Assembly (NCBI GenBank): GCA_022705575.1 | Contig: JAKJED010000005.1 | Coordinates: 1-40,095 of the forward strand | Source of the DNA: Patescibacteria group bacterium | GTDB taxonomy: Bacteria; Patescibacteriota; Minisyncoccia; RBG-13-40-8-A | DNA: 40,095 nucleotides | Direction of reading: 5' to 3' | Part shown: positions 15,004 to 18,302 of the stretch, in pieces | Position numbering within the stretch: position 1 is the first letter of the stretch | Layout of the letters: each line of letters begins with the position of its first letter | Translations under genes and position numbers: made by a program | Notes under the pieces: model-generated | What the model was told of the DNA's origin: nothing | Database searches by the model: none | The model's input: the letters and a program-made list of their open reading frames with translations, nothing else

Positions 15004-15123
15004 TTTAAAATTTATTTTATACTGAGACAATCTCGGAGTCCCGATCGCAATCAGGATGAAAGTTAGTGTGATTGCTACAATTTGAGCAATCAGCACGTGT
15101 CGACATATAAAATAAATTTTAAA
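15004..15123. repeat. 120-bp structured repeat element, copy 1
   Basis: The element is bounded by a perfect 18-bp inverted repeat (TTTAAAATTTATTTTATA at 15004-15021 and its complement at 15106-15123). The interior is richer in G+C than its surroundings and can form GAGA-caa-TCTC and a TGATTGCT/AGCAATCA stem. A second copy of identical length is at 18183-18302. It fills the divergent spacer between ruvA and truB and carries no ORF. It could be a MITE-like element or a structured RNA/regulatory module. Confidence 0.85.
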
Positions 15124-15161
15124 TCTCAATCTAATAATAACTCTTGGGACAATTTAAATCA

Positions 15162-15860
15162 ATGGACGGAATATTAATTATCAACAAACCTGCCGGTCCA
15201 ACCTCATACGACATCGTAGATCAAATCAAAAAAATCACTCGCACAAAAAAAGTTGGCCATGCCGGAACATTAGACCCCTTTGCTCAAGGTGTGCTTATAA
15301 TTTTAATAAATCAAGCAACTAAATTGCAAACAAAATTTATGGATATGCCGAAAACATATATCGGCACATTAAAATTAGGAGAAACGAGCAATACATACGA
15401 TCCTGAAGGAAAAATCATGCAATCATCAAGAAACAACGGCCAAACAAATCCTAATTATCAAATTCCCAGCATCCAAACAGTTAAAAATATCATAAATACT
15501 TTTATCGGGGAGATTGAACAAATCCCGCCAATTCATTCTGCAATTAAAGTTAACGGAGAAAGAGCTTACAAATTAGCATGGAAAGGCGAGAAACCAGAAC
15601 TAAAACCGCGAAAAATCAAAATTTACAATATTAAAATTTTAGACTACAAATGGCCATATCTTAAAATTGAAGTTAATTGCGGACGAGGAACATATATTCG
15701 AAGTTTAGCACATGACATTGGACAAAAACTTGATTGTGGCGCCTATTTACAAACACTGATTAGGACGAAAATCGGAAAATTTATCATTGAAAACTCAATC
15801 GCAGTCAATGATTTAAACTCGCAAAACTGGACAAAAAAAATAATTTCTGCTAATCTGTAA
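15162..15860 (+). CDS. truB: tRNA pseudouridine-55 synthase TruB
   Basis: The start is the ATG at 15162 (MDGILIINKPAG), the standard TruB beginning; an in-frame TTG at 15144 only adds six residues. The catalytic aspartate is in HAGTLDPFAQGVL (near residue 40). Further family blocks are KTYIGTLKLGETSNTYD, QIPPIHSAIKVNGERAYKLAW and VNCGRGTYIRSLAHDIG. The enzyme converts U55 of tRNA to pseudouridine in the T loop. The C-terminal PUA domain is absent, as is common for short TruB forms. rpsT follows after 2 bases, so the two are co-transcribed. Confidence 0.96.
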   Translation: MDGILIINKPAGPTSYDIVDQIKKITRTKKVGHAGTLDPFAQGVLIILINQATKLQTKFMDMPKTYIGTLKLGETSNTYDPEGKIMQSSRNNGQTNPNYQIPSIQTVKNIINTFIGEIEQIPPIHSAIKVNGERAYKLAWKGEKPELKPRKIKIYNIKILDYKWPYLKIEVNCGRGTYIRSLAHDIGQKLDCGAYLQTLIRTKIGKFIIENSIAVNDLNSQNWTKKIISANL

Positions 15861-15862
15861 AC

Positions 15863-16156
15863 ATGCCGATAAAAAAATCAGCGAAAAAAGCATTAAGACA
15901 AAATAAAACTCGGAGACAAAGAAATCTCCGCCGTCTTGATGTTTCACGCAACATAATTAAAAAAATCAAAAAAATAGTTGAAGAAGGAAAAAGAGCTGCC
16001 CAAAAAGGCGAATCCCGCCCATGGCAAGAAGAAGCAAACAAACTTCTTCCTTTAGCTTATAAAGCAATCGATAAAGCTGCGAAAACCGGAGTAATCAAAA
16101 AAAATACTTCTGCAAGAAAAAAATCAAGATTAACAAAATTTATCAACAAAAAATAG
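15863..16156 (+). CDS. rpsT: 30S ribosomal protein S20
   Basis: The 97-residue basic protein has the S20 pattern: MPIKKSAKKALRQNKTRRQRNL at the start, a long helical middle, and LPLAYKAIDKAAKTGVIKKNTSARKKSRL near the end. S20 binds 16S rRNA early in 30S assembly. It starts 2 bases after truB and is followed by a strong terminator. Confidence 0.96.
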   Translation: MPIKKSAKKALRQNKTRRQRNLRRLDVSRNIIKKIKKIVEEGKRAAQKGESRPWQEEANKLLPLAYKAIDKAAKTGVIKKNTSARKKSRLTKFINKK

Positions 16157-16161
16157 GTACC

Positions 16162-16188
16162 AATCCCGCCTTTGGCGGGATTTTGTTT
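16162..16188 (+). terminator. Rho-independent terminator of truB-rpsT
   Basis: The 9-bp stem AATCCCGCC/GGCGGGATT (16162-16170 and 16174-16182) with a TTT loop is followed by TTGTTT. It ends exactly where the convergent holA gene stops. Confidence 0.85.
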
Positions 16189-17125
16189 ACAACCCGAAAA
16201 TAACCAATTCCAGCGCAGTCTGAACATTGGTTTTTCCTAATTTTGATTCAAAATCTATTATCATTAACTGACGATAGATTTTTTTTAATTCTTCATAAGT
16301 AAAATTATGCGCCTGTTGTTCGCTCTTTCTTGCCACAAAAGGATTTAATCCCAACAATTCGATTGCTTTTGTTGTTTTAATTTTGATTAAATTCCTAAAC
16401 TGATAAGCGATCATAGACAATAAATAATACAAATCAGCCCCCTCATCAATATGTTGATTGAATAGTTTTAATGCCTTGGATTTATTTTTATATCCAATCG
16501 CATCAACTAAATCAAAAATCTTTAAATCGATTTCCGGACCAATAAATAATTCTACGCTTTCATGGCGTATGGTCGGATTATAGGCAACAAGTTTATTTAA
16601 TTCGTTAGACATGCGCCACAAATCATTTCCAACCCATTCTGCAAGTTTTTCCACGGCGGAATTATCTATTGATGCTTTTTGATTTGCTACAAATTCTTTT
16701 ATCCATTGCTTAACTTTCGCCGGCTCCAATAATTTAAATTCTTTATATTCGGCTCTGGACTTCAAATATTTTTGAAGTCCATCCGCCGACGAGACGGATT
16801 TTCCGTTCACTTCATCCGCCCAAAAAACAATGGTTATATTTTCGTTTTTATCAATTTTTGATTTTTTCAAAAATTCTAATATCTCTCCCTGCTTATCATT
16901 GTTTAGATCGAAAATATTATCAATAATCATCATTTTTGCGGTGCTAAACATTGGAATTGTGTTTATGGTTTTTTTTAATTCTTCAAAAATATCAATTTGC
17001 TTATCGCTTGCATCAATTCTAACAAAATCCAACCATTCAACGTTGGATTGTTTATTTTTTTCAATCATTTTTCTCAATTCTTCCTTAGATCTATATGTGT
17101 CTTGTCCGTATAAAAATATAATCAT
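16187..17125 (-). CDS. holA: DNA polymerase III delta subunit (clamp loader)
   Basis: The 312-residue protein starts MIIFLYGQDTYRSKEEL and continues in HolA style (PMFSTAKMMIIDN, ITIVFWADEVNGKS, LLEPAKVKQWIKEFV, VEKLAEWVGNDLWRMSNELNKLV, and YYLLSMIAYQFRNLIKI). The delta subunit opens the beta clamp (DnaN, also in this window). It is slightly shorter than typical (about 340). Residues about 110-123 (SVSSADGLQKYLKS) are encoded by two adjacent palindromes and look inserted into an otherwise conserved region. It follows the DUF3048 gene by one base. Confidence 0.9.
   Translation of the reverse strand: MIIFLYGQDTYRSKEELRKMIEKNKQSNVEWLDFVRIDASDKQIDIFEELKKTINTIPMFSTAKMMIIDNIFDLNNDKQGEILEFLKKSKIDKNENITIVFWADEVNGKSVSSADGLQKYLKSRAEYKEFKLLEPAKVKQWIKEFVANQKASIDNSAVEKLAEWVGNDLWRMSNELNKLVAYNPTIRHESVELFIGPEIDLKIFDLVDAIGYKNKSKALKLFNQHIDEGADLYYLLSMIAYQFRNLIKIKTTKAIELLGLNPFVARKSEQQAHNFTYEELKKIYRQLMIIDFESKLGKTNVQTALELVIFGL
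16757..16799. repeat. Double-palindrome in-frame insertion inside holA
   Basis: The arms GGACTTCAAA (16757-16766) and TTTGAAGTCC (16771-16780) form one hairpin. ATCCG (16781-16785) and CGGAT (16795-16799) form a second, immediately adjacent. The whole 43-bp block is translated within holA. Confidence 0.75.
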
Positions 17126-17126
17126 A

Positions 17127-18167
17127 TTAAAACACCTCCCACTTAACCTCTGTATTCGGCTCGACGATTTCTATCCAAATTTTGCCCGGCATAAATTCTA
17201 TTTCTTTACCATTTTCGTTATAAAATGTAAGTTTTGAGTCCGTATAATTTCCTTTCTTCCTCCATGTTCCTTTAATTTCTTCTCCGTTTTGATAAATTTT
17301 TGCCTCTCCTTCTCCCTGCGCACTAACTTCATTATAATTCGGTTCCTCAATCATATGCGATTCGGCACGCATTACTGCAACTACCGCAACTTCAACCTGA
17401 TTGCCGTTATTTTTATCCGTTTCCCGTAAATTTGTTCTGTATCTTTGATAAATATTTTCTTCTTTATTATAAGCATACGAAACCCTAAATTCTCCGCCAT
17501 AACCAATAGTTAACTTTCCGCCAATATTCGGGCTTTGTAATTTTGACTCTGATTTTTTAAGATGCGGATAGCCCAAAAAATTATTTTCTAAACTATATTT
17601 GAATTTTTCAGCGCCATTAATTAATCGCTCCAAAGATGTAAAACCATTATACGGCGGTTCTTTGTCTGAAGTACGGTAGTATATCTGATATTGATCAGTC
17701 ATGGCATCAATATTGTCAATAATTCCTTTGTTTAAGTAATCGTAAGCAAAATGCGAACCGCCCCAGTGAGCATAAATCGCATCAAATCCTAATGCCAAAG
17801 GAATATAATCATGACGCGCGCTGCGCACAGAGCCGATTTCTTCGGGCGTTTCACAACCAAATATTGCCATTAAACGCGTGATTCCTCCGGTAATTACCGG
17901 CATTTCAATAACCACGTCTGCTTGGCTAATTCCGGATAATGGTCGATTAATGGCGTCGTTCGCCATCATTACTGCAATCGGTCTGCGATTATAGTTTTCG
18001 CATTTTTGACCGGTAATGGGGCTGATTCCTGTGCCATTTTTTGGTTTTTCCTGCTGATTATTGTTTTCACCAACAATATCCACTTTTCTGCTTCCAAAAA
18101 ACCAAAAAATTGCTCCAATAATCGCCAATATAACTATAATTATTAGAATTATTTTAATTTTTTTCAT
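17127..18167 (-). CDS. DUF3048 (YerB-like) membrane-anchored protein
   Basis: The 346-residue protein has an N-terminal membrane helix (residues about 5-24). The rest is the DUF3048 pattern: RRPIAVMMANDAINRPLSG, ADVVIEMPVITGGITRLMAIF, IGSVRSARHDYIPLALGFDAIYAHWGGS, and in the second half FRVSYAYN and WRKKGNYTDSKLTFYNENGKEIEFMPGKIWIEIV. Members such as Bacillus YerB sit outside the membrane and have no settled function. There is no lipobox cysteine, so it is anchored by the helix. It is probably co-transcribed with holA (1-base spacing). Confidence 0.85.
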   Translation of the reverse strand: MKKIKIILIIIVILAIIGAIFWFFGSRKVDIVGENNNQQEKPKNGTGISPITGQKCENYNRRPIAVMMANDAINRPLSGISQADVVIEMPVITGGITRLMAIFGCETPEEIGSVRSARHDYIPLALGFDAIYAHWGGSHFAYDYLNKGIIDNIDAMTDQYQIYYRTSDKEPPYNGFTSLERLINGAEKFKYSLENNFLGYPHLKKSESKLQSPNIGGKLTIGYGGEFRVSYAYNKEENIYQRYRTNLRETDKNNGNQVEVAVVAVMRAESHMIEEPNYNEVSAQGEGEAKIYQNGEEIKGTWRKKGNYTDSKLTFYNENGKEIEFMPGKIWIEIVEPNTEVKWEVF

Positions 18168-18182
18168 ACAAAATTAGATTAT

Positions 18183-18302
18183 TTCAAAATTTATTTTATA
18201 CTGAGACAATCTCGGAGTCCCGATCGCAATCAGGATGAAAGTTAGTGTGATTGCTACAACTTGAGCAATCAACACGTGTCGACATATAAAATAAATTTTG
18301 AA
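18183..18302. repeat. 120-bp structured repeat element, copy 2
   Basis: It is the same length as copy 1 (15004-15123), with very few substitutions. The 18-bp terminal repeat is TTCAAAATTTATTTTATA plus its perfect complement: the third base pair changed on both sides relative to copy 1. The other two differences lie in a hairpin loop and in a bulge. It sits between mutM and the DUF3048 gene. Confidence 0.85.

Follow-up and report, generated by a model that had tools for sequence, protein, structure and literature searches.

A family of dispersed, folded intergenic elements in Patescibacteria, with two short-form copies on one contig

Two copies of a 120-bp inverted repeat

We analyzed a stretch of 40,095 nucleotides (contig JAKJED010000005.1 of assembly GCA_022705575.1; hereafter the window), which is contig 23 of a 656-kb Patescibacteria genome that is 99.6% complete and consists of 52 contigs. 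The window carries two copies of a 120-bp element with an 18-bp terminal inverted repeat, and this element is apparently a member of a large, undescribed family of dispersed folded DNA elements. Both copies occupy spacers: copy 1 separates the divergent genes ruvA and truB, and copy 2 separates mutM from a second minus-strand gene, which is DUF3048-like but has no family match. The features below were assigned from the predicted fold, the comparison of the two copies and family alignments, and the scores are those of the covariance model R2.

15004-15123, plus strand: element copy 1, short form, between ruvA (minus strand) and truB (plus strand); R2 74 bits, E 4e-15
18183-18302, plus strand: element copy 2, short form, between mutM (minus strand) and the DUF3048-like gene (minus strand); R2 78 bits, E 5e-16
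15004-15021, plus strand: outer stem, 5´ arm, copy 1 (predicted fold; partner 15106-15123)
15106-15123, plus strand: outer stem, 3´ arm, copy 1 (predicted fold)
18183-18200, plus strand: outer stem, 5´ arm, copy 2, with C-G in place of T-A at the third pair (fold and copy comparison)
18285-18302, plus strand: outer stem, 3´ arm, copy 2 (fold and copy comparison)
15039-15056, plus strand: junction arm 1, shortened, TCCCGAT..ATCAGGA (alignment of 10 family copies)
15066-15096, plus strand: junction arm 2, GTG-TGATTGCT..AGCAATCA-g-CAC (fold and family alignment)
15023-15029, plus strand: conserved TG-A-GACA strand, which closes the junction with TGTC-GA-CA at 15098-15105 (family alignment)

The copies lie on the same strand and are 97% identical (E 1e-52), with four differences at element positions 3 (T/C), 78 (T/C), 90 (G/A) and 118 (A/G). 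Because positions 3 and 118 pair with each other, as the third pair of the terminal repeat, the replacement of T-A by C-G is counted as compensatory. In the TGATTGCT/AGCAATCA hairpin, position 78 belongs to the loop and position 90 is bulged. All of this agrees with the first-pass annotation, which had described two spacer copies of equal length with few differences, and its statement that the interior is richer in GC than the surroundings is likewise borne out (46% versus 33% for the window). The arms have a GC content of 0%. Both strands of the window copies fold far more stably than shuffled sequences, with z values of -5.7 to -6.6.

A purine-rich stretch, GGGAYAACAAAGG, follows three of the four close copies in this genome (18303-18345 in the window and the right flanks of L003 and L004) and is not found after copy 1; either the element has a variable extension there or this sequence may mark a neighbourhood that it prefers.

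Distribution, fold and pairing of the family

Searching the window genome and its relatives for further copies, as the first-pass annotation had advised, revealed eight in the window genome, four close and four distant. The four close copies are found by DNA search, and the covariance models recover six copies (R1, the earlier model) and eight copies (R2, built from 55 matches). Relatives of the same family carry diverged, longer homologues. R1 matches occur in 70 of 383 genomes of the class and R2 matches in 34 of 379 genomes of a phylum sample, in surveys whose filters lose weak matches. By whole-genome counts, element-bearing genomes hold 1-32 copies, the maximum being reached in one 0.7-Mb genome, and copy number ranges from 0 to 13 within one family. 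The copies are dispersed between housekeeping genes with unrelated flanks. No Rfam 15 family exceeds its curated gathering threshold, weaker searches of Rfam likewise give no match, and no description of the element was found in the open-access literature.

A search of named genomes with the core pattern returned 111 stretches, many of them in Parcubacteria-type metagenome-assembled genomes (MAGs) and others in multi-copy MAGs that bear the depositors' labels Deltaproteobacteria, actinobacterium and WOR-3. Multi-copy elements occur in 1.6-3.9 Mb MAGs labelled as non-Patescibacteria (L112-L191; JACPKQ, JACQJD, CAJVYJ, JAGLZA), which may reflect horizontal spread, mislabelled MAGs or deep ancestry. 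The core pattern has chance matches in isolates too (Leucobacter, Martelella and others), which the covariance model rejects, and the viral contigs, phages and plasmids that were searched contain no match to the element.

The full-length forms of relatives are ~140-165 nt long and have one common fold, in which a long outer stem leads to a three-way junction with two arms that bear conserved loops. The structure was derived from six diverged longer homologues in relatives of the same family as the window genome. The outer stem has a GA/GA internal loop at its foot, TG-A-GACA pairs with TGTC-GA-CA at the junction, arm 1 bears an apical hairpin as well as a GCATGG bulge, and arm 2 has a GCTG loop. 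The unpaired core letters TCG[GC]AGGC (TCGSAGGC), GCATGG, GCCGAGA and CGCTGG are strongly conserved. The close copies of the window genome are termed short form because the GCATGG bulge and the apical hairpin of arm 1 are missing from them.

Two subfamilies, type A (CTGAGACAAT..GTGTCGACAT) and type B (AAAGACC..CACGTGTCTTT), occur side by side in several genera (L025-L050; genomes G000, G001 and G004), and the split therefore appears older than the genera. Genome G004 also contains longer composite repeats (L018 1250-1520, L021 750-960, L015 1330-1530) that combine the right end of the element (CGTGTCGACATGYAAGATAAAYC / GTAAAATAAAT) with a different, larger interior, and a standard element is nested within one of them, in L018. 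These repeats could form a structural subfamily of their own, the second one, or be chimeras built from modules.

Pairing is maintained through extensive sequence change. In an alignment of six sequences whose columns were aligned by sequence alone and are thus free of model bias, although the structure was drawn from the same sequences, 22 of the 52 pairs are changed on both sides and 98% of the cells remain paired. In an alignment of 106 copies, 92.3% of the cells are paired (55.9% when shuffled, 35-48% with slid partners), each of the 52 pairs has changed on both sides and covariation reaches 0.875 versus 0.211; an alignment from the named genomes gives the same outcome, and both alignments were fitted to the covariance model, which inflates these counts. 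The outer-stem sequence varies even between copies of one genome while the arms stay complementary. The first-pass annotation had suggested selection for structure from the two window copies. The covariation among relatives strongly supports this claim, which is qualified in two ways: replicative template switching can mimic such changes, and pairing is broken within the window genome itself. Among the four close copies, pairing is disrupted by three arm changes in C18:631 and at a junction pair in C41, which indicates that not every copy is under perfect constraint.

Individual sites are both variable and persistent. In two element-free relatives the gap between ruvA and truB is a few tens of bases at most and holds no element, so the site of copy 1 is empty elsewhere. 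Other sites are common to different genera: the infB and leuS/purN spacers in G000 and G004 (the G004 copy being a longer variant) and the 3´ end of one gene in G003 and G004. At the rpmE-prfA junction of one genus, three species carry the element a few nucleotides past the rpmE stop codon with outer stems that are unrelated yet self-complementary (the third copy, in L317, was missed by the model and recognised by eye), and other species of the genus have an ordinary terminator or no spacer. The empty sites, together with shared sites whose stems have been rewritten, indicate that copies are gained and lost and are also kept for long periods with their pairing maintained, although the shared sites may represent independent insertions at the same place. 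The rpmE-prfA spacer of L322 (G374) holds yet another inverted repeat upstream of prfA (TTAGCCA..ATAGGGTATAG / CTATACCCTAAT..TGGCTAA), at the place taken in relatives by the element or by a terminator.

Placement, folded strand and the search for a mobilising enzyme

Gene context was counted with the elements masked, and a gene on each side was assigned for 157 of 182 distinct copies. Of these, 78 are in tandem spacers opposite to the genes, 30 in tandem spacers in the same direction, 30 in convergent spacers and 19 in divergent spacers (opposite versus same, p=4e-6). In 55 of 108 cases, no more than 10 nt separate the 3´ end of the element from the stop codon of the opposing gene, compared with 6 of 60 for the 5´ end (p=4e-8), and in 26 of the 30 convergent spacers it is the 3´ end that is nearer to a stop. 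TAG is enriched among the adjoining stop codons (30/70 versus 85/358, p=0.002), and all five pairs of close neighbouring copies are arranged head to head. The window copies are atypical of this stop-adjacent class, since the mutM stop is located ~34 nt past the 3´ end of copy 2 and copy 1 lies between divergent genes.

The wobble pairs point to one strand. In the outer stems, G.T wobbles outnumber A.C mismatches in 45 sequence clusters versus 12 (p=1.3e-5), among sequences retrieved with a G.U-tolerant model; the apical hairpin shows a weaker asymmetry (16 versus 4) and arm 2 shows none (15 versus 12). This excess implies that the folding strand is probably the one antisense to the stop-adjoining gene. 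Combined with the gene orientation, it makes folded DNA a better fit than RNA of a 3´ untranslated region (3´-UTR); either may be the acting form, with the strand evidence favouring DNA.

We consider it about evenly balanced whether the window copies are short-form members of a widespread dispersed intergenic family that acts as folded single-stranded DNA, is spread in trans and is then retained. On this reading, an enzyme acting in trans would recognise the folded strand and insert it next to stop-codon-like targets in a fixed orientation, by analogy with REP and IS200-type transposases and with integron integrases, whose substrate is a single folded strand. The inserted element would then be kept, perhaps since a structure just past a stop codon affects transcript ends or translation termination. 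We infer the movement, the enzyme and the effect on the neighbouring gene alike.

Several results weigh against this reading. The wobble test drew on a model that itself admits G.U pairs. A Y1 transposase of the REP-associated tyrosine transposase (RAYT) kind was rejected as the mobiliser, as Y1 is present in 45 of 70 element-bearing genomes and in 186 of 313 other genomes of the class; it is absent from 8 of 19 high-copy genomes. No transposase or mobile-element family recurs among 88 neighbour proteins, and those that do recur are housekeeping proteins. No consistent target duplication was found: the longest flanking repeat averages 4.19 (3.89 when permuted) and is at least 8 nt in 1 of 177 cases. 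The element has been kept for long at orthologous sites, and a host function would account for this no less well than mobility. The Y1 genes listed for the window genome lie on contigs without elements. Autonomous long versions were also considered and rejected, as the genes between neighbouring elements are ordinary in the three loci inspected. Separately, weak Y1_Tnp proteins of ~220-260 aa, a RAYT-like size, are encoded in ~60% of the class genomes, often several in each and unlinked to the element; they may have REP-like partners of their own.

The main rival, which we regard as a serious possibility if a somewhat doubtful one, is a structured RNA, either the 3´-UTR of the stop-adjoining gene (the reverse complement of the element) or a small RNA from the plus strand, that is retained for a role in transcript 3´-end stability, translation termination or protein binding. 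The placement directly behind stop codons suits an RNA of this kind, as do the conservation of the loops, the internal loops rich in GA, the compensatory rewriting at sites that related species have kept in one orientation (rpmE-prfA; G003/G004 and G000/G004) and the intrinsic terminator that stands in the same place in some relatives. However, the wobble asymmetry indicates the strand antisense to the gene, which argues against the gene-sense version, and TATAAT-like hexamers are not enriched upstream of the plus strand, which leaves the small RNA without promoter support. No U-run (T-run) follows the stem at either end or in either direction in the flanking sequences inspected, no Rfam family matches, and a copy number of 0 to 13 within one family also speaks against an RNA.

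A miniature inverted-repeat transposable element (MITE) was the other reading offered by the first-pass annotation. An ordinary MITE, whose terminal inverted repeat would be recognised and moved by a DDE-type transposase, is improbable. The terminal repeats, small size, multiple copies and near-identical recent copies in the window genome are all MITE-like, whereas the outer stems differ within one genome and yet stay complementary, and conservation resides in an interior fold that MITEs do not need. The fixed orientation relative to stop codons and the lack of a consistent target duplication do not suit a MITE either. No transposase was found among the recurrent neighbour families or with matching ends near the copies, and no parent transposon with the same ends was seen among the window-genome matches (52 contigs) or next to copies.

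Inert inverted repeats present a similarly slim prospect. Template switching between arms during replication yields multi-base compensatory changes and restores hairpin arms (PMC8794818), so that the covariation could be mutational rather than selected; the same process should erase mismatches, whereas conserved unpaired features persist throughout the class (junction strands, GA/GA foot, GCATGG bulge and asymmetric internal loops), and it leaves the stop-codon adjacency, the orientation and the strand-specific wobbles unexplained. A transcription terminator of the adjoining gene is very unlikely as well, for although the elements follow stop codons and terminators take their place in some relatives, the inspected flanks lack the T-run that should accompany a GC-rich hairpin in either direction, the window copies have a long, AT-only outer stem that is unlike that of a terminator, and a junction with conserved loops would be superfluous.

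Comparison with known systems

Patescibacteria genomes are tiny and gene-dense, yet in about one-fifth of the sampled genomes of the class a complex folded element, absent from Rfam, is maintained in one to many copies. Its stop-codon placement, strand polarity and compensatory rewriting make it testable as a new mobile-element strategy or a new 3´-end regulatory structure, and the covariance model and alignments provide a handle for finding a partner protein by gene-content correlation.

With the structured non-coding RNA families of Rfam 15 the element has in common a conserved secondary structure, strong covariation and conserved loops; it differs in having no family match, a variable copy number and a folded strand that is antisense to the flanking gene. 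MITEs are alike in being small, non-coding and present in several copies with terminal inverted repeats, but the element lacks a consistent target duplication, conserves its interior fold instead of its ends and is oriented by stop codons.

The closest likeness is to the repetitive extragenic palindromic sequences and bacterial interspersed mosaic elements (REP/BIME) and to the REP doublets (REPINs) served by TnpA-REP (RAYT), on account of the single folded strand, fixed orientation, head-to-head pairs, lack of a consistent target duplication and variable copy number. These sequences are likewise dispersed, multi-copy, intergenic and imperfectly palindromic with neighbouring copies inverted, and conserved mismatches in the stem, a feature of REP (PMC8266576), are common to the element studied here. 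The GTAG tag of REP is partially enriched on the 5´ side in gene sense (22/181 versus 10.7 when shuffled) and is not universal. In contrast to REP/BIME, the element is ~120-165 nt long instead of 20-40, has a three-way junction with conserved loops, is not linked to a Y1/RAYT gene and spans many genera of a phylum.

Strand polarity and position invite the second comparison, with integron attC sites, which are also imperfect palindromes behind a gene in a fixed orientation. The folded and recognised strand of attC is the bottom (antisense) strand (PMC2727003), and the element shares a folded bottom strand that adjoins the stop codon of a gene. It differs in its three-way junction and in lying outside cassette arrays, beside housekeeping genes, and membership was rejected, the R´´/R´ core boxes RYYYAAC...GTTRRRY being present in only 1 of 181 elements. 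Thus, neither REP/BIME nor attC accommodates the element, because it has no consistent GTAG tag, no Y1/RAYT link and no attC core boxes. We tentatively propose, as a possibility well worth entertaining though short of probable, that it belongs to a new and ancient class of folded elements, strand-specific and made of DNA (or RNA), in Patescibacteria and their neighbours, distinct from REP, MITE, attC and catalogued RNA, which would have its own recognition protein and target the stop-codon side of genes.

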